From Kiritimatiellia bacterium (GTDB lineage Bacteria; Verrucomicrobiota; Kiritimatiellia; RFP12; JAAYLN01), in contig JAQULY010000003.1 of NCBI GenBank assembly GCA_028718445.1, positions 1 through 35,088 on the forward strand: DNA of 35,088 nt, written 5' to 3'. How positions within the stretch are numbered: position 1 is the stretch's first letter; each line of letters begins with the position of its first letter. The notes beneath the pieces were generated by a model that did no database searches, was not told the origin of the DNA, and was given only the letters and a program-made list of their open reading frames with translations. Shown here in pieces: positions 23,390 through 34,680 of this stretch. A program made the position numbers and the translations under genes.

Positions 23390-24145
23390 CTAAGGGCCCA
23401 TAAGCCTGGCGAGGGTCGGCTCAATGGCGTCGCAGAGGACGCGGCAACCGGTCGCGTTCGGATGCAACCCGTCGAGAAAGAGATCGCGGCGGAACTGGCC
23501 GGCGGCGTCATGGAAGGCGGAACCGACATCGAGGAAGGTCACGCCATCCTTGCCGTTCAGTGCGGTGCTTAGGCGATTGACCTCCACCAGTTTGGCCGGC
23601 TGGTTCGCATGTGGGAGAATTCCCAGCAGCAGGATATTGGTGGTGGGCAAGCGCCTATGAACTTCGGCGCAGATGGCGGCAATGCCTGCCGCGATTTCCT
23701 CCGCGGTATTGAGCCCGAGGTTATTGACGCCGATGAGGATGACCGCCGCCTTGGGCGCGATGCCGTCAAGTTCGCCGTTCCGCAGCCGCCAGAGAACGTT
23801 CTCGGTCCGATCCCAGCCAAAACCCAGATTTACGGCGTTACGTTTGCCGAAGTACTGCGTCCACACGTCCGGCGCCCGTGCGATTCGATGCTTCGGCTCG
23901 CCACCCCAGTAGTGGATGATGGAATCGCCGATCAGGATCAGGTCCGGCTTTTTCTCTTTCAGGCAAGCCAGCACCTCCTGATGCCGAGTCGGCCAGTCAT
24001 AGATCTGCGGTTCGCGATTGTGCGTCACCGGGACGATCGCGGTATTCGTCGGCATCACTGGCGCAGGGAGAGAAGCCGTCGGCGCGCCGACCGCTAGGCA
24101 GAATGACGTTCCGGTCCAGGCGATCACTGCAAATGCGATTCTCAT
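23390..24145 (-). CDS. Secreted SGNH/GDSL-family hydrolase
   Basis: A 251-aa protein starting at the ATG at 24145 (GGAG 6 bases upstream); the track start at 24196 lies inside the upstream gene. A signal peptide covers about residues 1-21. SGNH blocks are visible: block I LILIGDSIIHYW (Ser75), block II NLGFGWDRTENVLWRL, block III LIGVNN (Asn141) and block V DGLHPN (Asp225, His228). The layout resembles PAF-acetylhydrolase-like SGNH esterases in polysaccharide-degrading bacteria, which often remove acetyl groups from glycans. It is the last gene of the right-hand locus, 20 bases after the frameshifted gene. De-acetylation of the locus substrate is an inference. Confidence 0.85.
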   Translation of the reverse strand: MRIAFAVIAWTGTSFCLAVGAPTASLPAPVMPTNTAIVPVTHNREPQIYDWPTRHQEVLACLKEKKPDLILIGDSIIHYWGGEPKHRIARAPDVWTQYFGKRNAVNLGFGWDRTENVLWRLRNGELDGIAPKAAVILIGVNNLGLNTAEEIAAGIAAICAEVHRRLPTTNILLLGILPHANQPAKLVEVNRLSTALNGKDGVTFLDVGSAFHDAAGQFRRDLFLDGLHPNATGCRVLCDAIEPTLARLMGP

Positions 24146-24165
24146 GGGAATCTCCAATCTGCGCC

Positions 24166-25513
24166 TCACTGTACAGAATTTCCGCGATCTTCGCACAGTC
24201 TAATAGATCTCGCGATACCCGCGAGTCGGGAGCCGTTACGTGAATGCAATGTCGCGATATCGTTTTCGCTGACAATATCCTCGATCAGGTCGCCTTGAAT
24301 GACGCGATAAAGGGACTCGAAATTGGATTTTGCCTGATAAAGTTGCAGCAGGCTCCGATTGTCCTGCCGTTCTTCCCATTTTGAACGGGCGAGATCGAAC
24401 GACTCCTTTGCGCTTTTCAGTCGGGTCGATCTTTCGTCCGATTCCGGGAAACACGGCAACCGAAACTCCGGCAGGGCGGGAGGAGGAAGCCGCAGGGATA
24501 AAACGGACTGAAGTTCAGCTTCCACCTCTTGCCGCTGGGACAAAAACCGATCGATGGCCAGCACATAGGCTTCGTCAACCCAGTCGCCCAGCACGGCAAC
24601 GACACGGGTGGATGCGTCAGGCGGACGGATTTCGATTTTCACGCTGGAGCTTTCGGAACCACCCTTTTCGCCCTCCAGGATGACGTTTTCCGTTGTTTCC
24701 CTGGCCGGCGCCAGCACGACGCCCGCCGTGTTTTGCCCATGCCGGTTGAACAGGGTGAAACGCAGGGAGTCGTTCGTCGTGAAGCTGTGCGTGGCTCCAT
24801 CTAAAGGAAGCCGACGACCCGCGGCGTCGAGCCAGCGCTCGCGCCACCATTGCCCTCGGGCGCTGTAATCAAATGGATGGCAGGAGAACACATAGGTCAG
24901 GCGTTCGACTTGCCGATTGACCGGGGGCTGATATTCGAGATTGAGTCCGAACCGATCCAAGTTCCCGCGCCAGCCGATGAACCGCGCCTTCAAAAGACCT
25001 CCCGCGGCATCTCTCCAGAAGGCCTCCGCGACAATGCGGGAGGGCGTCGCCTCCCGTATTCCCGCGTGGACGAGTTCCCCGGAGTGGGTGGGCGATGGCA
25101 GGGATTCGGCATCGCCGGTCAATCGGATGTCGGCGTCGAGAAACGACCAGGAACTCCAGTTCGACAGTGCGTACCCGGCCGTTTTTTTCCCCATGATGCC
25201 GGTGGAACTGTCCCCCCACTTTTGTTGCTTGGGCGGAAATCCGGTCGCGGGGTCGAGTCGCTGTGTCGCCGTGAAACCAAATGCGCCGAACCGAAGGACG
25301 GCTTGGCGCTCGGTGAATCCGCTTCGATCCGCCGCGTCGCGCCCCCCCCGTCCCTTCGATGACCGTGGAGGAGAAACGCTCGCTTGCGACAAAAGAGGTG
25401 TCGCCAGTCATGAAGGCTTGTTCGTTGTCCTGCGAATGCCCGGGCGCCGCCCAGGCGAACAGCAGAGCGGACACAGGCAAATGCCATAGCATCGTTCGCT
25501 TCGTCGGGATCAT
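24166..25513 (-). pseudogene. Frameshifted secreted protein of unknown family (G8 run)
   Basis: Two ORFs in different frames form one gene. The 5' part starts at the ATG at 25513 (GGAGG 7 bases upstream; ATGA overlap with the GH42-like stop) and encodes the signal peptide MIPTKRTMLWHLPVSALLFAW followed by a mature start. The 3' part is the 408-aa track ORF to 24166. The frames meet at a run of eight G on the minus strand (25342-25349); seven would join them into about 448 aa. The intact protein would have a beta-rich body (RLTYVFSCHPFDYSARGQWWRERW) and a helical tail (KSAKESFDLARSKWEERQDN). No family recognised. It sits directly downstream of the GH42-like gene, as the jelly-roll protein does in the left locus. 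Real mutation, slippage switch or sequencing error are all possible. Confidence 0.75.
25342..25349 (-). repeat. G8 homopolymer at the frame break
   Basis: Eight consecutive C on the plus strand (G on the coding strand), flanked ACG...CGCGAC in the coding direction. Removing one G restores a continuous reading frame from the signal peptide to the 408-aa body. Confidence 0.9.
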
Positions 25514-28500
25514 GGCAGCGCCTCCGTTCCATCCAGGTCGACGGCGATCGTCGCGCGTCTTCCAGAAATCACATCCGTGGCGATAAACGTCCATCGGCCG
25601 GGGGCGTCGTCGAAGGCAAACGTCAGCGGAACCGTCTCCCTCTTGCCAGCCTGGAGTTTGAGCACCTTGCGAAAGGGATAAAAGGCGCTTCCGTCCGGTT
25701 GAATCGCCTCGAGCCGGATGACATGCAGGCCGCGTCTGCCCGTCGAGGCCCCCACGTCGATCTTCAAGGCGATGGTCTGCCCCTGCGCGAGCCGGGAGGC
25801 GTCCGAAGCCAGTTCGACGCCCGTGACGGAATAGGGCAGCAACGCATAGGCCCGGTGGCCGCGGCGGGGGATGTCGTCCTCCAACCGGGAAACCTTCCCC
25901 AAATACCGCTGTGAACGGATCTCGTAGACATGCAGGGGGGCGGGCAATGTCAGTTCGAAGGGTCGGCGGGAGCCGATGAAATCGCCGCTTCCGAGCTCGG
26001 CGACGCCGACAAGATAACCTTCCCCCATCCGGAACGGGCTGATCTCAAAACCTGGAGTCTCCTCCCCCTGACTGGCGCCGTGAAGGGCGACCGGGACGTT
26101 GGCAAGCGCCAGCGCCTGCTTGACAACGCCATGCCAGGCCCGCCAGAGTTCTCCGCCTTCAACGCGGTATCCGTTGTAGGCGGAGAAGGAGGCGTTCAGC
26201 AGAACGGCCGCGCCCTTGCCATGTCGATTGAGCAGCAGGGCCTGCGCGCCCTCCACCTCGCCGAAGGAACTGGCCGTGGTGGCCCGGATGCGCGGATCGG
26301 CCAGCACCTTGCCGAAGTCCAATGCAGGGCCGACGTCCGAGAGCGGCCTCCCCGACAGCGTGCCGCGAACCCGGCGTCTCTTTTCCGATGCATCCGTCGT
26401 GACGCCGAAAACATCGTCAAGCGCGGGCGCCTGGCGCAGGTTGCCATTCGGAAGCCGCCTGCCTGGATAAATGTCCGCGAGAACGACTCCGCCAGCCTGA
26501 ACGAATGTTCGAATGGATTGGGGTTCCTTCTCCGAGAGACTGTGAGAGCTTGGCAGGACCAGCAGTCTGACCGGCGCATCGACCGGCAGACCCGAGGCAA
26601 GTTCGTCGGAGGTGATGAAATCGGGATTGACTAGGTGATCCTGCAGGGCCGGAAGAAAGGCGCGCATGCCCTCGTATTCCGTGGAAATCGGTTGATCCGC
26701 CTTTTCCAATCTGTCGCAGATCGCCGAGGTTTCGCTGGCCAGCAGCGCAACGGGATCGAAAACCCGTTGCGCGGATGTGAACAACTCCCCAATCCCCGAG
26801 GACAGCTCCTCGATCACCTCCGCTTGATAGAGCGCGTGATGATCCGAGAGCCGGATGCCGCCCTGAATGCCCGGGCCGGGAGCCAGTATCCAGTAGTAGA
26901 TGCCATTTCCTCCTGCAAACAGCACCTCCCAGATTTGCGCCCGGCGTCCATGCATCCTGTTGGGCTTGCCTCCATAGGTGCCAAGGCATGAGCCAAAATC
27001 CCCGTCTTTGCGCATGCGGCCTCGCGCCACGCCCAGCTTGAGGGCGAGGTTGTCGTGATACGGGGCGAAATAATTGACGGCGTCCGCCACGGCGTAGAGG
27101 GAATCGCCGTAGAGGCCGGCATCGCTGCCGACGACAAGTTCGGGGTCTATGCCGCCGGCCGCTTCGTCGGCCCATTTCATGTACGTCGTCCATCGTTCGA
27201 TGAGAAAACGCCGAGCATCGATCCAGGGCGCCGTCGTCCCTTGGGAAAAGGCCGCTTTGATCGACGTCGGCGTGATGGCGCCCCAGGGATTTCTCGAAAG
27301 GGCGTCTCCCTGTTCCGACATGAAAGCCCGCGCGTCGGCCCGCGGGGCGTCGTTTCCCTTCCTTCCAAGTTCCTCGATCATCTCCGGCTCGATGGCGCCG
27401 AATTCCCGCATCGATCCAGGGGAAGGCGCCGCGTTCAGCTTCCAGGCCGTCGCGGTCTCGGCGATGCCGCCGTATTTCCGCCGCAGCCATTCGTGAAACG
27501 CAAGGATGGCGTATGGATCCGAGGGGAGCGTGTTACCGGATTCAGGCTGCTGGAACGCCTCGTTCCAGCCCCATGCCTTGAGCGTCTCCTCCAATCCCCC
27601 ATACTCGTCTGCCAGCCATTTGTGGAAACGCGCCGTCGTGTAGGCCCCGGGAGGAAGTTCTTCCGCAGCCCCCGAGTCATCTGTCAAATTGAAGCCGCGA
27701 AGTCCGTATCGCCGCAAGCTCGACGCCTGGAAGGCGCTCCCGGCGCGCAGCTCCTCCTGAACGGAAGGCTCCTCCCAATCGGAGATGTGGTCGCGCGTCC
27801 AGTCCCTTTGCGAGGGACTGACCATTTTCAGAAAGGGGTGCATCTGGATGTCGCTCCAGGCACAGGTCTCAGCCTGAATCGGATCGCCGGGAGAATAAGG
27901 GCGGTTTGCGAGAAAGCCCAGACGCCTGAGAAATTCCAGGCGGGCGGCCAGTTCCGGCCCCGGGAACCCATGGCCAAGCCCGTGCGTCAAGGTTCCGAGA
28001 ACGTGAAGTCCTCCGCGCTTCGACCGTGGCTGGGGCCGGATCTCGGTCACATGGCTTTGCGAGGCGATCCTCCCATGCGCGTCGACAAGCTCGGCATGCA
28101 GCGTCCAGATCGGCCCGTCAAGTCCACCCGAGGAGAAGTCATAGTGAACCTCGTCCGCACCCGAAGCGCCCTCCAGGCGCCCGACCTCCCGCCAATGGCG
28201 GTCGACCAGACGAATGCGGATGCGCGCGTCGGGGGGCATGTTGGGAACCGCGACGACGCCGGAGACGGCCGCGTCCCAATCGATTCCATCCGGGTGGTCC
28301 GATGCGATCCGGGGAGGGTCGACATGACGGTCGACGAACATGAATGAACTGCCCCAGTCGACCGTCCTGCCGCCTGCGTCCTCCACCCAGACGTCGAGAA
28401 AGCGGCGCCCGGCGTCCTTGAAGGCGATCCCCGGAACGGGGAGCCTTGTGTCGCCCCCGGCCAGATCCAGGACGATCTCGCCGCCATCGGATGCGCAGCC

Positions 28501-29478
28501 CCAGGTGTCCCGGATTTGCCACCGCAACGCGCCGGCGAATTTCCCGGAGGCGCTCAGGACGATCTCGGGTGCGCCGCCATCGCCCTTTCCACGCGGCTGG
28601 ATCTCGCCGATCCGGCAGGCGGGGACATGCCCCGAGGCCGCCAGGATCAGCTTGGCCACGAGACTGCAATGATAATCCGCCTCGACCCACATGTCCCGTG
28701 AAAGCGCAATGCTGGGAAGCAGGGTGCGGCACCACGCGTTGCGCGCCCAGTGCGATTGCGTATCACAAAAGACGACCCGCCCCTTCCCGAAATCGGCAAT
28801 CGACGTCTTGCCGTAGGCATACGGCTTGACGACGGGCGCATAATTCAAGTTGCCATGCCAATAATTGTACGTCAGATACACAGTTCTTTTCGAGGTTGTC
28901 CATTGCCGCAGCCCATCGCCGGGAATGCCGGGAACTTGAAGGGGAGCCTGATCGAGACCGAGGAACGACGGTGTCAGAATGGTTTCGGGATCGAACAGGT
29001 CGATGACCAGCAGGCCGGCGCCGTCCGCCTTGACGCGGCGGAGGATCTCGTACTTGACATCGTCCGGGATGCGCGCGGAGTTCACGCGGGAAAGCACGAA
29101 GCAATCAAACCTGGGGCGACTCGCGAGCGCTTGGGCGAATTTCTCCCGTCCTCCGGAGAACGCATAATCGGCGAGGATCACGGCGTCGATGGGGAACTCG
29201 AGGTTCAACGCATGGATCTTGTCCTCCGCAAAGTCGTTTGTGATGAACAGGACGGTGGGCTTCCGGCCGGCGAAGGCGGTCCGCACAAGCTGCAGTCGCC
29301 GCGGCCAGACCGTCTCCAGCCATTGGCATCCATCCGCGAGTCGCGGCCCGCCTTCGGTCGATTCCGGCGCATCGTAGCCCACGGGAAGACGGGGCGTGAG
29401 AAGGATCGGCTCCCCGCGTCCCAAACCGATGCAGAGGAATGAGCAGCAGACGATGATCGCGCGTCTTGCGAAGGTCAT
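25510..29478 (-). CDS. Large secreted GH42-like protein with degenerate active site
   Basis: I start at the ATG at 29478 (AGGAG 7 bases upstream), giving 1322 aa with signal peptide MTFARRAIIVCCSFLCIGLG. It is a paralogue of the 1204-aa protein of the left locus: both share FGKGR in the N-terminal domain, FLDVWVEDAGGRTVDWGS against FVDAWIRDGGNTVNWGS, the GATase-like LLVLPSSHSLS region and the C-terminal YLGKVS..LLPYSVTGVEL domain. In the barrel, NLTDDSG replaces SLGDENE and the four-cysteine cluster is missing, so GH42 chemistry is doubtful. A segment FHKWLADEYGGLEETLKAWG is repeated about 44 residues later as FHEWLRRKYGGIAETATAWK. Its stop overlaps the next start (ATGA). It may be a glycan-binding or altered-specificity enzyme. 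Confidence 0.72.
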   Translation of the reverse strand: MTFARRAIIVCCSFLCIGLGRGEPILLTPRLPVGYDAPESTEGGPRLADGCQWLETVWPRRLQLVRTAFAGRKPTVLFITNDFAEDKIHALNLEFPIDAVILADYAFSGGREKFAQALASRPRFDCFVLSRVNSARIPDDVKYEILRRVKADGAGLLVIDLFDPETILTPSFLGLDQAPLQVPGIPGDGLRQWTTSKRTVYLTYNYWHGNLNYAPVVKPYAYGKTSIADFGKGRVVFCDTQSHWARNAWCRTLLPSIALSRDMWVEADYHCSLVAKLILAASGHVPACRIGEIQPRGKGDGGAPEIVLSASGKFAGALRWQIRDTWGCASDGGEIVLDLAGGDTRLPVPGIAFKDAGRRFLDVWVEDAGGRTVDWGSSFMFVDRHVDPPRIASDHPDGIDWDAAVSGVVAVPNMPPDARIRIRLVDRHWREVGRLEGASGADEVHYDFSSGGLDGPIWTLHAELVDAHGRIASQSHVTEIRPQPRSKRGGLHVLGTLTHGLGHGFPGPELAARLEFLRRLGFLANRPYSPGDPIQAETCAWSDIQMHPFLKMVSPSQRDWTRDHISDWEEPSVQEELRAGSAFQASSLRRYGLRGFNLTDDSGAAEELPPGAYTTARFHKWLADEYGGLEETLKAWGWNEAFQQPESGNTLPSDPYAILAFHEWLRRKYGGIAETATAWKLNAAPSPGSMREFGAIEPEMIEELGRKGNDAPRADARAFMSEQGDALSRNPWGAITPTSIKAAFSQGTTAPWIDARRFLIERWTTYMKWADEAAGGIDPELVVGSDAGLYGDSLYAVADAVNYFAPYHDNLALKLGVARGRMRKDGDFGSCLGTYGGKPNRMHGRRAQIWEVLFAGGNGIYYWILAPGPGIQGGIRLSDHHALYQAEVIEELSSGIGELFTSAQRVFDPVALLASETSAICDRLEKADQPISTEYEGMRAFLPALQDHLVNPDFITSDELASGLPVDAPVRLLVLPSSHSLSEKEPQSIRTFVQAGGVVLADIYPGRRLPNGNLRQAPALDDVFGVTTDASEKRRRVRGTLSGRPLSDVGPALDFGKVLADPRIRATTASSFGEVEGAQALLLNRHGKGAAVLLNASFSAYNGYRVEGGELWRAWHGVVKQALALANVPVALHGASQGEETPGFEISPFRMGEGYLVGVAELGSGDFIGSRRPFELTLPAPLHVYEIRSQRYLGKVSRLEDDIPRRGHRAYALLPYSVTGVELASDASRLAQGQTIALKIDVGASTGRRGLHVIRLEAIQPDGSAFYPFRKVLKLQAGKRETVPLTFAFDDAPGRWTFIATDVISGRRATIAVDLDGTEALP

Positions 29479-29491
29479 GGAGCGGCTCCTG

Positions 29492-29539
29492 CTATGCATC
29501 CGCGAACCAGGCGTAGGGGTCGTCGTGTTTGTCGGTCAT
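29492..29539 (-). CDS. Possible 15-codon leader ORF
   Basis: In the 102-base gap between the DUF4838 gene and the second GH42-like gene, an ATG opens a 15-aa ORF, MTDKHDDPYAWFADA, ending 13 bases before the next gene's ATG. The ribosome site is weak (AGAAAAG). It may be a translational coupling leader, a gene remnant or chance. Confidence 0.25.
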   Translation of the reverse strand: MTDKHDDPYAWFADA

Positions 29540-29580: not shown

Positions 29581-32208
29581 TCATGGCGCGAGCCTGACTT
29601 CGCCGAGCCGGTCCACTTCGCGCACCGTGCAGTAGGAGACCCAGGTGTCGATGCCATAGGGGCCTTCGCCTGCGAGCTTAGAATTGCTGGTGCGCAGGAT
29701 GTTCATGTAGATCGTGTCGCCCGGCTTGATCGGCTGGTCCACCAGCGTCGCCAGGGGCCAGGAGAGCCGTGTGACCCAGCGCTTGCCGGTGGTATCGGCC
29801 ACGGCGCGGATGCCGGTCTCGTTCATGGGAACGTATTGCCGCCAGTTGATTTCACCGTAGGAAAGCGCCCTCGTCTTTCCGGTGATCCCCACGGCGTACT
29901 GCCGGAAGGGCTGGGCGCGTTGACGGGCGAAGAGCGGTTCCCAGATATCGGCGGGGAACACATCGGCTGTTTCGATGAGTTGCTCCTTGGCGACGTTCTC
30001 TTCCGTCAGTTCCAGGTAGAAGAACTCGCCGTCGTGGCAGGCCCGGCCGCGAAAGATCCGTTTCGAGGGCTCCTTGCCGCCGCGCGCATACCACTTGTCG
30101 CCAAGGTCGCCGGCCTTGTCCCAGGCGACTTTGGCGGGATCGCCATTTGCCGCCGGCACGCGCACGGCCGTGACGGACGGGATCGGCGTACGCATCCGCT
30201 CCACGTACGTTTGGCGCCCGGTCTGCATGTAGCTCCATACGCCCTTGTCCCACAGCTCCACCCGCTTGGCGCTTTCGCCCGCGGCCTTGCCGCGCGCTTC
30301 GTCCAACAAGGCGCCCAACTTCGCCATGGTCTCGGCATTCCCCATGTACTCCCAGGCGATGGCCACCGTGTAGCCGCCCCCGTAGGGCTTTCCTCCGACC
30401 TCGGGCAACACCGACGGATCCATGAAGCGGCTCTCAGCCAGGTCATACCAGGCGCGCATGGGTCTGGCGGCCGGTCCGTAGGCGGCGAAGTAGTCGCCGA
30501 GCAGCGCGTCCACGTCCAGCGTCGGGTCGTCCATGAGCTTGTACGTCAGGTAGTTCTCCACCTCGCCGTTGAAACCGCAGTGGAAGATGCCCTGGACTCC
30601 GAGCTTGTGGAAGTAGTCGAACTGCCGTTTGATCTCATGTGCGAAGAAGCCTGGGAAGCAGTGGAACCTGCCGTTATTGGCGGTTTCCAGCGGAAACGTG
30701 TTGTAAAGCCACAGGTACATGGGGACGTCGGGTTGCTTGTCCCGCCACTCCTGAAGCCGCGCGAGCTGCTTCGCCAACCCCTGCCTCCCCGCGCCGCCCG
30801 AGCGGTTGGCGGAAACGCAGAAATGCACCACCACGTTGCTTTCCAGGCCAAATCCCGCGGGCAGTCCCTCGTGGGTCATGTAGGCCAGTGTGGAGATGAA
30901 CTTGCCGGGATGCGTCTTCGCAACCTCCTTTGCCACGGCGTTGACGAAGCGGAACCAGTAGGTGCTGTGCTGGCTCCTCTCGGATTCGCGCGCCGGTTCG
31001 TAATGTGGCGCGCAGATCGCGCAGCGGCAGAACGAGGCGTTGTCCATGGGCTCCAGGGCGAAGAAGTCCTTTCCCCATCGCCGTCCGCCGACATCGAAGT
31101 AGTGGCGGGCGTCCTGGACCACCTGGGCGATCGTGGCGGGGTTCCCGTAGCAGAGCTGCGGGGGCTCGGCCTCCCCATAGCCCTGTGCGAAGTATTCGGG
31201 GCGGTAGCTCTCGAACCCCTTCCGGTCCTTGTGGAAGAAACGGTCATAGTAGTTGTAGAAGGAATGGTTGCACTGGCGATCGTCGCCGCCCGCCTTCATG
31301 TGGTACTGGAACAGGAGATTCTGCGCGCGCAACGCCGACTTGAAACGCGCGTCGGGATAGACCGCTTTCAGCAGCGGATAGGCCGCCGCCATGTAGGCCT
31401 CGGCCTGCTCGGTCTTCCCGCGCCAGAGGCCGCCGCCATACTGATAGTCCGCGGCATCGCCATGTCCCCGCCCGTTTCCCGAACTTCCCGCCGCAAGCCC
31501 GCCCCGGAACGCCATGAAGGGGCGCCGCCGGATCTCCTCGCCCTTGACCGTCAGGGTCGCGGTGCGCGGACTGAGCGTGCCGAAGTCGGTGGGATTGATC
31601 CAGCGCACGCCGCAGTACTTCTCCAGTAAGTCGTAGACGGCGTGCATCGTGCCCTGCGTCTCGTACAAGGACACCCAGGTGTCGCTGGCGTTGGGGTTGG
31701 TCAGGTAGTCGTAGTCCACCGGCCCCCGGTCGTCCTTGTCGCGACCCATGAGCACAAGCGTGTCGGGCAGGAACCGGATCAGGTACCCCTGCGGTGCGAA
31801 ACCGTCGTTCGCGAGCCCCAGCGCGCGCGTGGCGCCGCTCTCGCCGACCAGGATGCGAACGCCGGGAACGGTCGCGTCCTCGGCGACGATCGGCAGCGTG
31901 GCACTCGTCATCAACCGCACATGGTGCTGAAGCTCGAATGCCGCCAACTGCGCCGCGCGCGTCGGCTGCGTCGCCAGCACGATAGCCGCCGCCGTGGCAC
32001 CGTCCTTGACCAACGTCAGATCCAGCGGCGCGGCGCTGGCAAGTCCGACGTCCATCACCAGAAGCGAGCCCGCCATGGCCGCTCCCACGCGCAAGCCCGT
32101 TCGTCCGTGTATGCTTGTCATATCGTCCCGCCGATCCAGAAGCTCCTGTAGAACGGGAGCCGCGTCCCGGGCGCCGTCCGCGACCTCGGCCAACAAAGAA
32201 TGGTCCAT
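29581..32208 (-). CDS. DUF4838 glycoside-hydrolase-like protein with C-terminal CBM9-like domain
   Basis: I chose the ATG at 32208 because AGGAGG lies 5 bases upstream (875 aa). An ATG at 32121 would place the signal sequence (GLRVGAAMAGSLLVMDVGLASA) at the usual distance from the N-terminus. Residues about 60-140 resemble the N-terminal domain of alpha-glucuronidases (AAFELQHHVRLMTSATLPIV). The DUF4838 domain (about 190-480) has PPQLCYGNP, a cysteine cluster CRCAIC (394, 396, 399) and FVNAVAKEVAKTHPGKFISTLAY. About 640-875 is a CBM9-like sandwich ending DTWVSYCTVREVDRLGEV. DUF4838 proteins accompany glycan-degrading genes; the reaction is unknown. It lies 40 bases after the PATRR gene. Confidence 0.82.
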   Translation of the reverse strand: MDHSLLAEVADGARDAAPVLQELLDRRDDMTSIHGRTGLRVGAAMAGSLLVMDVGLASAAPLDLTLVKDGATAAAIVLATQPTRAAQLAAFELQHHVRLMTSATLPIVAEDATVPGVRILVGESGATRALGLANDGFAPQGYLIRFLPDTLVLMGRDKDDRGPVDYDYLTNPNASDTWVSLYETQGTMHAVYDLLEKYCGVRWINPTDFGTLSPRTATLTVKGEEIRRRPFMAFRGGLAAGSSGNGRGHGDAADYQYGGGLWRGKTEQAEAYMAAAYPLLKAVYPDARFKSALRAQNLLFQYHMKAGGDDRQCNHSFYNYYDRFFHKDRKGFESYRPEYFAQGYGEAEPPQLCYGNPATIAQVVQDARHYFDVGGRRWGKDFFALEPMDNASFCRCAICAPHYEPARESERSQHSTYWFRFVNAVAKEVAKTHPGKFISTLAYMTHEGLPAGFGLESNVVVHFCVSANRSGGAGRQGLAKQLARLQEWRDKQPDVPMYLWLYNTFPLETANNGRFHCFPGFFAHEIKRQFDYFHKLGVQGIFHCGFNGEVENYLTYKLMDDPTLDVDALLGDYFAAYGPAARPMRAWYDLAESRFMDPSVLPEVGGKPYGGGYTVAIAWEYMGNAETMAKLGALLDEARGKAAGESAKRVELWDKGVWSYMQTGRQTYVERMRTPIPSVTAVRVPAANGDPAKVAWDKAGDLGDKWYARGGKEPSKRIFRGRACHDGEFFYLELTEENVAKEQLIETADVFPADIWEPLFARQRAQPFRQYAVGITGKTRALSYGEINWRQYVPMNETGIRAVADTTGKRWVTRLSWPLATLVDQPIKPGDTIYMNILRTSNSKLAGEGPYGIDTWVSYCTVREVDRLGEVRLAP

Positions 32209-32248
32209 GCTACCCTCCTGTCGTATCACGGTATGCGACTCGGGCTAA

Positions 32249-33514
32249 TCACCGGACGACGATCGCCAGTCCAGGGGCAGGATCCCCGTTTTGCGGAAGA
32301 AGGGAACCGGTCCCTTCCAAATAGGCGCCGAGGTTAGATGGCGTGTATAATTTCCCTTTAACCTGCAACTCGCCGTTCACATAAAGTGTCCCGACAACCA
32401 GCGGCGCGCCCGTGAAATCGAGCTTCAGCTTGGTGCCCGGAACGAGCCGAACGGCTGTCGCATCGGAAAGCGCCTCGCGATGGGTCACGCTGAGAATCCC
32501 CTCCTCGACAACCGTCGCCCCGCTGAACGTGTTGGTTCCGGAAAGCGTCAGCGTGCCCGCCCCACGTTTCGTCAGACCGCGGGCGGCGCCGCCTTCAGCA
32601 ATCGCGCTGCTGACTGAAAGATCGTGCTGGACGTTCCAGACCGAGTTCGCGAAGAGCTTGAGATTGGTCAGCGCGATGGCGTAGGTGCCGGTTGATCCCT
32701 CCGTGGTCACGCCCCCGCCTCCCAGCGCGAGACTTCCTCCGCCGTCGTTCAACGTGAAATCCCCCGCGCGGTTGATCGTCATGCCATACCAGACCAGGTC
32801 GCCATCGATGGTGGCGGCGTCTCCGCCGCTGCCAAAGGCGCCCCCGTCCGTACCGTCATTGAGCGGACTCAATCCGTTCAACCAGTTGTTCGTTAAGCCG
32901 ACGGATAGATTGGTTCCGCCTACCCCGGTCCAGACGGCGTAATCGCGGACGATGGACACGTCGTCAACCAAGAATACGGATGGGTTCGAATAACTGTCCT
33001 GTTTAACGGACAGCCAGAAGACGCGTGTTACGTAATTTCCCGTGAGAAACGTCCGCTTCCGGCTTTCCCAGCCATTCCCCCAGGGCCAATAGTATGCTGC
33101 ATAAGCGCCTAGGCCGGGGCTGCGCCACTCGCTCTGCATCAGCGGGTTTTCTGCATTGGGAATGCTGCAGGAGCGATTGAACATCCAGGAAACCGTGTAG
33201 TAGCGATTTGATGTCGTGGGGACTTCGTACCAGATGGCGGTCCAGACGGAAATCGAGGAGTTGAGCTGGAAGCAGTTGGTTCCCGCATACGGATTCAAGG
33301 TGTTTCGCACGTGAGATCCGCGCCCTGCATTCCCATCGCGCGCCCAGCCCGTCGGCATGTTCGCCTGTGCATAATAGGGCGTGTCGGCCGCGGCGTTGGT
33401 CCAGTTCTCGAAACCGGGATCCACGACCAGATTGCTTTGGCCCGGGGCGGGGAGATGCAGCAGGCATCCCACGCTGACGACGACGAGTGACAATGCGATC
33501 GGTTTGCTGTTCAT
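32249..33514 (-). CDS. Secreted PATRR (autotransporter-associated beta-strand repeat) protein with CBM-like domain
   Basis: The ATG at 33514 (GAGG upstream) gives 421 aa; the track start at 34036 reads back through the regulator. A signal peptide (MNSKPIALSLVVVSVGCLLHL) leads to a jelly-roll domain (about 25-190) opening NLVVDPGFENW and closing FLVDDVSIVRD. From about 195 a beta-solenoid region follows, with the PATRR signature LTKRGAGTLTLSGTNTFSGATVVEEG and a terminal VGTLYVNGELQVKGKLY. No PEP-CTERM or other anchor is visible; the protein ends GLAIVVR. Such proteins are secreted or surface-attached, probably holding glycan near the cell. First structural gene of the right-hand operon, 77 bases after the regulator. 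Confidence 0.78.
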   Translation of the reverse strand: MNSKPIALSLVVVSVGCLLHLPAPGQSNLVVDPGFENWTNAAADTPYYAQANMPTGWARDGNAGRGSHVRNTLNPYAGTNCFQLNSSISVWTAIWYEVPTTSNRYYTVSWMFNRSCSIPNAENPLMQSEWRSPGLGAYAAYYWPWGNGWESRKRTFLTGNYVTRVFWLSVKQDSYSNPSVFLVDDVSIVRDYAVWTGVGGTNLSVGLTNNWLNGLSPLNDGTDGGAFGSGGDAATIDGDLVWYGMTINRAGDFTLNDGGGSLALGGGGVTTEGSTGTYAIALTNLKLFANSVWNVQHDLSVSSAIAEGGAARGLTKRGAGTLTLSGTNTFSGATVVEEGILSVTHREALSDATAVRLVPGTKLKLDFTGAPLVVGTLYVNGELQVKGKLYTPSNLGAYLEGTGSLLPQNGDPAPGLAIVVR

Positions 33515-33561
33515 CCTTGACCTCACTTCTTGTCTGTGTGTGTTGACTGTGGCGTTCACGA

Positions 33562-33585
33562 AAACAGCCGAAAGCGTTTCTGTTT
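33562..33585. promoter_or_regulatory. Candidate operator before the PATRR operon
   Basis: Between regulator and PATRR gene, AAACAG (33562-33567) and CTGTTT (33580-33585) form a perfect inverted repeat spaced by 12 bases. Inside it GAAAGCGTTTC (33570-33580) resembles LacI-family operators. The regulator here has a LacI-like sensor but a GntR DNA-binding domain, so which protein binds is open. Confidence 0.4.
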
Positions 33586-33591
33586 CCTGTC

Positions 33592-34680
33592 TTAGTCTGG
33601 AGCTAAGCGGGGGGCGATGCGTTCGACCCGAGGCGGAAGCGCGGGATTGCGAAGACGTTCCATGAAAACCGCCACGCCGGCTTGAGCCAACGCGAGGATG
33701 TCGACCTCGAACCGGAGAACGGGGATCGAGAAGACCAAGGGATTCTGGACATGTGTCAGCACAGCGACCCTGGGGCGGTATTCTCCCGCATCCCGGATGT
33801 GCTGCGTGAATCCCGCTCCGATGTAGTCGTCGAACACAATGAAGCCATCGGGACGCCGATGCGCCGGGAGGCGAAGCACCCTCTTGGCCAAGGCACGCCC
33901 ACCCCGCAGAAAAAAGTCGCTGTCCAGCTCGGTGCTTGAACGATCCAGGGAGACGGACAGAGGTGCCTCGTCTTCGGTTTGCAGAAGAAAGTCCTGTGTC
34001 GCGTTTCCTTTTTGGAGCCTGGCAACCTGCCTGCATCCGCGGGCGCGCAACGTTTTCCCGGCCTCGTCCCGCATGGCGTCCATGTCGATCACGGCGCTAT
34101 TTCTCGGCCTCCAGAAAAAGACACTCAAAGGCATACCCGGGGCGACGTCGTCCCAGCCCTTCGGATCGAATTCGCCCAGACTGATCGCGCCGTCAAGTGT
34201 TCCCTTCTTGGCGTCGGCTACGCAGTCCGGATAATCCTCCGCGATGCGACCAGTTTGCCTATGGTGAAAATAGATCCGCGGCAGGCAACCCGCTTGAGTC
34301 AATTCATATTGGATGTAGGCGACAAGCAGACTCTCAAACGGGCATGCCGCGTGCATGTCCCTGATATTTTCAAGGATGGCGATCCGCCACAGAGATCCCG
34401 TGTAGGCGTTGGGGTTCAGCACGAACACGCCGCTTCTGAGACGACGCTCCAGGGCGCCTTCCTCCGCCAACCGGTCCAGCGCCGGCATGAGCGCGTTGTT
34501 GCTCATCCCCAGCGTTGCGGCAAGCCTGCGCAGCGGGGGCAGCCGTTCGCCGGGCTGCATGTCCCGCACCCAGATTGTGCGCAAAATGGCTTTGCAGGCG
34601 CGTTCCACCTGGGTAGTTCCCGCGTTGCGCCCCGAAAAAATATGAGCTGAATCTGCTCTCATCAATGAGAACAGTACCAT
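33592..34680 (-). CDS. GntR-type regulator with LacI-like sugar-sensing domain
   Basis: A 362-aa regulator. Residues about 22-90 form a GntR winged helix (RACKAILRTIWVRDMQPGERLPPLRRLAATLGMSNNALMPALDRL, part quoted). Residues about 98-350 resemble a LacI/periplasmic-binding sensor (DGAISLGEFDPKGW, RPDGFIVFDDYIGAGFTQHI, NPLVFSIPVLRFEVDILALAQAGVAVFMERL). It precedes the PATRR/DUF4838/GH42-like operon in the same direction and probably controls it. The start is uncertain: the ATG at 34680 has GGAG nearby but lies within a strong promoter (TTGACA-N17-TACTGT), whereas the ATG at 34662 would sit almost at the transcription start. Effector unknown. Confidence 0.83.
   Translation of the reverse strand: MVLFSLMRADSAHIFSGRNAGTTQVERACKAILRTIWVRDMQPGERLPPLRRLAATLGMSNNALMPALDRLAEEGALERRLRSGVFVLNPNAYTGSLWRIAILENIRDMHAACPFESLLVAYIQYELTQAGCLPRIYFHHRQTGRIAEDYPDCVADAKKGTLDGAISLGEFDPKGWDDVAPGMPLSVFFWRPRNSAVIDMDAMRDEAGKTLRARGCRQVARLQKGNATQDFLLQTEDEAPLSVSLDRSSTELDSDFFLRGGRALAKRVLRLPAHRRPDGFIVFDDYIGAGFTQHIRDAGEYRPRVAVLTHVQNPLVFSIPVLRFEVDILALAQAGVAVFMERLRNPALPPRVERIAPRLAPD
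34657..34670. promoter_or_regulatory. Palindrome TCTCATcaATGAGA at the regulator start
   Basis: A perfect inverted repeat with 6-bp arms and a 2-bp centre, overlapping the predicted transcription start and the second ATG of the GntR-type gene. This is the position expected for an autorepression operator. Confidence 0.45.

Follow-up and report, generated by a model that had tools for sequence, protein, structure and literature searches.

Two kinds of described system come closest to the locus analyzed here. The first comprises the poly-G contingency loci of Campylobacter and Neisseria: G/C tracts of at least 8 switch genes in Campylobacter, where poly-G tracts exceed chance expectation and peak at 9-10 (PMC6321876), homopolymers of at least 8 are mostly variable in the meningococcus (PMC5084427), and a tract of 8 is long enough to switch (PMC6321876, PMC5084427). 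The second comprises the frameshifts left by homopolymer indels in draft and metagenome-assembled genomes, on which our literature search (homopolymer errors in metagenome-assembled genomes) returned nothing specific.

The window, i.e. the whole 35,088-nt stretch that was analyzed, belongs to contig 3 (JAQULY010000003.1) of a 5.72-Mb draft assembly of a Kiritimatiellia bacterium (GCA_028718445.1; 725 contigs, 86.7% complete), which is presumably a metagenome bin and has contig sizes resembling those of a short-read assembly. The same assembly contains a putative giant gene: one 14.4-kb contig is occupied for at least 12.5 kb by an uninterrupted open frame (L131:1-12522, G000:C85). In the window, a C8 run on the plus strand, which reads as G8 on the coding minus strand, occupies exactly positions 25342-25349, in a sequence context that is unique in the genome. 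The run and its surroundings are laid out as follows.

23390-24196, minus strand: secreted SGNH/GDSL-type hydrolase, downstream; likely start at ATG 24145, 20 nt past the stop of the body frame
24166-25347, minus strand: body frame, 393 aa followed by a stop; predicted beta-sandwich, then C-terminal helices (from the coding frame and structure prediction)
25342-25349, minus strand: G8 homopolymer at the junction of two frames (from the sequence and a codon-usage change point at 25338-25349)
25350-25513, minus strand: 5′ part of the gene, with ATG 25513, the signal peptide MIPTKRTMLWHLPVSALLFAWAAPGHSQ and then about 26 residues (the coding frame with the highest score as far as the run)
25510-29499, minus strand: 1329-aa secreted glycoside-hydrolase-like protein, upstream and co-directional (weak DUF4350 and GH42M matches, under the Pfam cut-offs)
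29581-32229, minus strand: DUF4838 protein, presumed to be in the same operon

The ATG at 25513 and the stop codon that ends the upstream 1329-aa gene (25510-25512) share bases in an ATGA; this overlap speaks for translational coupling and identifies the ATG as the real start. From there, 214 aa can be read in the signal-peptide frame, which passes through the run without interruption and is closed by a stop at 24869-24871. The body frame is offset from it by one base, has an upstream stop at 25408-25410 and ends at 24166-24168, so that any shift between the two frames is confined to the interval 25410-24871. The initial annotation had described a 408-aa body; the frame does exist, but the figure counts from TTG 25392, which is not a plausible start, and the body proper, taken from the run, has 393 aa. 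No signal peptide was found in the body frame, which upstream of the run reads LATPLLSQASVSPPRSSKGRGG, and the 393-aa body has no Pfam match. As that annotation had also stated, the body is open without further stops; it is coding-like and shows no decay.

To locate the switch, we built a codon-usage model from long ORFs of the same genome that do not overlap one another (about 0.37 Mb in total). Upstream of the run the highest score belongs to the signal-peptide frame, and downstream of it to the body frame. A likelihood scan across the entire permissible interval, conducted blind to the run, peaks at 25338-25349, identifying the G8 run as the correct switch site; a switch at the run scores +33, versus -40 for the signal-peptide frame continued to its own stop. 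The tract lies inside a reading frame that is set by its length, and the claim that G8 at 25342-25349 breaks the gene by one base is borne out.

On the basis mainly of codon usage and the ATGA overlap, with which candidate counterparts agree, the two frames are parts of a single broken secreted-protein gene, and not two genes. The ORF listing, which gives 408 aa from TTG 25392, would favor a short secreted peptide followed by an independent cytoplasmic body protein. This arrangement is very unlikely: codon usage upstream of the run matches the signal-peptide frame and not the body frame, and the body would be left without a signal peptide although its predicted fold and its operon are of the exported-protein type. 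Direct homologues of the body protein were not found in 95 genomes of the order or in the GTDB contig collection, and a search of 288 genomes of the class returned only one chance-level GH2-type match. We therefore turned to the upstream glycoside-hydrolase-like protein as a bait.

The bait found matches in 13 genomes, the window's own included. Several relatives of this protein are adjoined by small secreted proteins (L024 and L030), and further members of the same group occur in the window's own genome (L070, L071 and a fused version, L072). These proteins carry a signal peptide and a beta-sandwich in one frame, with C-terminal helices in L024 and L030. L024 and L070, which are candidate counterparts by synteny, have signal peptide and body in a shared frame, in opposition to the two-gene reading. 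Homologues that begin within the body frame and bring a signal peptide of their own were also sought, and none was seen among the candidate counterparts; the single-gene reading proposed earlier is supported. The body aligns colinearly with the L024/L030 group at 18-19% identity (hhalign P 0.04-0.06), which is suggestive but not proof. Structure models of the body and of the group suggest a similar order of strands and helices (mean pLDDT 58 for the window body and 76 for the other model; TM about 0.35), and both models retrieve, at low confidence, mutarotase-like supersandwich proteins, among them the YidC periplasmic domain and sandwich domains from GH and PL enzymes. A single-sequence HMM comparison of the candidate counterparts with the body was not significant. 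Taken by themselves, L024, L030, L070, L071 and L072 make up a small secreted beta-sandwich family, with a handful of members, located beside or fused to glycoside-hydrolase-like/DUF4350 proteins.

The neighboring genes (glycoside-hydrolase-like, DUF4838 and SGNH hydrolase) point to a polysaccharide-use operon, and the broken protein, which is poorly conserved and predicted to form a beta-sandwich plus helices, is probably an exported, carbohydrate-associated accessory. Farther upstream, a 595-aa ORF with a PATR (autotransporter-type) repeat (32249-34036, minus strand) overlaps a GntR-type regulator ORF (33592-34680), likewise on the minus strand, in the 3′ part of the latter.

We also sought other breaks at homopolymer runs in the assembly. 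Each of the 69 distinct G/C runs of at least 8 in the listed places was assigned to a class according to the coding frame on its two sides: 32 are in continuous frame, 9 at a frame switch, 25 in non-coding or unclear sequence and 3 at contig ends. Frame switches thus account for 9 of the 41 classifiable runs (22%), versus 73 of 2557 random sites (2.9%, a rate that takes in real gene boundaries; Fisher p = 3e-6), and a stricter count of six breaks yields p = 8e-4; because some sampled stretches were chosen for holding G8 runs, the switch rate refers to the listed runs only, while the class of each run is unaffected. Inspection by eye recognized about 7 convincing intragenic breaks at such runs, the window gene being one of them and the others as listed below.

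L077:14039-14579 (G000:C6), run at L077:14161: NfeD gene, adjoining an SPFH-like gene, broken at C8/G8
L091:5359-8116 (G000:C28), run at L091:7669: CHASE4/HisKA/HATPase/response-regulator hybrid histidine kinase, broken at G8 with the same offset
L078:16402-18484, run at L078:16870: signal peptide plus GATase1-like protein, split at a G/C run of 8-9
L105:1149-3945, run at L105:2042: GDSL plus GH123 N-terminal type protein, split at a G/C run of 8-9
L098:10658-11540, run at L098:11441: unnamed protein, split at a G/C run of 8-9
L113:578-2391, run at L113:2087: beta-helix-like exported protein, split at a G/C run of 8-9 with the opposite offset

The L077 run had been placed by the script in the class "other", and is a clear break in which the right half matches Pfam NfeD at 2.7e-12. 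Script-called switches in L093, L095 and L129 were weak or coincided with gene ends, and were excluded. Among G/C runs of length 7, none of 15 shows a frame switch; among those of length 6, the count is 1 of 75, a borderline case adjoining the L078 break. Apparent switches at three A/T runs of 7-8, and at the A/T runs of 6 that were inspected, are gene boundaries.

The breaks occur at long runs whatever the function of the gene (NfeD, hybrid histidine kinase and others), and the offset is +1 in 6 of 7, L113 being the exception. A pattern that follows run length and not gene function, with one offset dominant, fits a length error or random slippage at G7-to-G8 tracts; the prevalence of +1 would be expected from error and mutation alike, since true G7 tracts outnumber G9 tracts. 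Long G/C tracts are not enriched over chance genome-wide, but depleted: 355 kb contain 15 runs of at least 7, as compared with about 65 by first-order expectation (10 vs 47.6 for length 7, 5 vs 12.9 for length 8, and 0 vs 4.8 for length 9 and above).

The earlier suggestion that a surface protein is switched by slippage, with slipped-strand mispairing in the G run turning production of the secreted protein on or off among the cells of a population, is not supported. Such phase variation would agree with the location of the run directly behind the signal peptide of an exported protein, with the intact body, with the Campylobacter and meningococcal precedents for tracts of at least 8, and with the signal peptides that L078 and L113, among the other broken genes, also carry. 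A selected switch, however, would predict enrichment in long tracts, as in phase-variable Campylobacter, where they lie above chance, and the depletion seen here disfavors it; the tract is short, +1 breaks affect NfeD and the hybrid histidine kinase likewise, and a long run at this position is missing from the candidate counterparts. No comparable run was found near the 5′ ends of L024, L030 and L071, and L070 has one G5, although at such a distance between counterparts this is a weak test. Overall, we consider phase variation at this locus unlikely. About 4 of the 7 broken genes look exported, and a version in which just the exported-protein set (the window gene, L078, L105 and L113) is phase-variable via short G8-G9 tracts is decidedly improbable; if true, it would amount to a small phasome in an environmental, polysaccharide-degrading lineage.

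Recoding at G8, by programmed ribosomal frameshifting or by transcriptional slippage, could yield full-length protein without any change to the assembled sequence, and the location of the run exactly at the frame junction, together with the apparently intact body, speaks for it. Nevertheless, the run is not conserved in the counterparts, and the same break in unrelated genes makes a gene-specific recoding site unlikely; we regard the chances of recoding as minimal.

An ordinary homopolymer indel, be it an artifact of sequencing or assembly or a slippage mutation that arose recently and by chance, is very probably the correct explanation. A consensus error at the G8 run has about an even chance of being the cause, and the probability that the sampled cells carry a slippage mutation of recent, non-adaptive origin is substantial but falls short of even. 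In short-read data, consensus errors at G8 are uncommon, and in an assembly that looks short-read-like this makes genuine recent mutation a serious half of the explanation. The undecayed body is compatible with both. Against error as a rule at long runs, it should be noted that 32 of the 69 remain in frame, and against a plain indel of either kind, that several broken genes encode exported proteins, as a switch would favor.

According to our model, the locus would hold one gene, altered by a one-base length change in the G run and translationally coupled to the glycoside-hydrolase-like gene; the encoded protein would be secreted and carbohydrate-associated, with C-terminal helices following a signal peptide and a mutarotase-like beta-sandwich. 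If the additional base is real, translation from 25513 would give about 55 residues of the correct protein and then an out-of-frame tail up to the stop at 24871, and the body protein would not be made.

The significance lies mainly in annotation hygiene: one-base changes at long G/C runs probably split about seven genes of this assembly, for which a flag is more appropriate than a reading as pseudogenes, short proteins or switches. Should the tract prove variable in reads, an environmental bacterium would be shown to switch a polysaccharide-use protein by means of a tract.

Comparison with the poly-G contingency loci of Campylobacter and Neisseria reveals a shared arrangement, in which an intragenic G run lies near the 5′ end of an exported-protein gene and a one-base change turns the body off. 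The present locus, known from one assembly, differs in having a tract of 8 instead of the usual 9-10, in the lack of genome-wide enrichment, and in the breakage of housekeeping-type genes as well. With the L024, L030, L070, L071 and L072 proteins it appears to have in common the location in or beside the operon, secretion, the predicted strand order and C-terminal helices, while the identity is only 18-19% and the profile match alone is not significant (P about 0.05). As far as can be judged from the assembly alone, we can name no difference from the homopolymer indel frameshifts of draft and metagenome-assembled genomes, with which the locus shares an offset of one base located precisely at a long G/C run, the intact flanks and the recurrence in unrelated genes.
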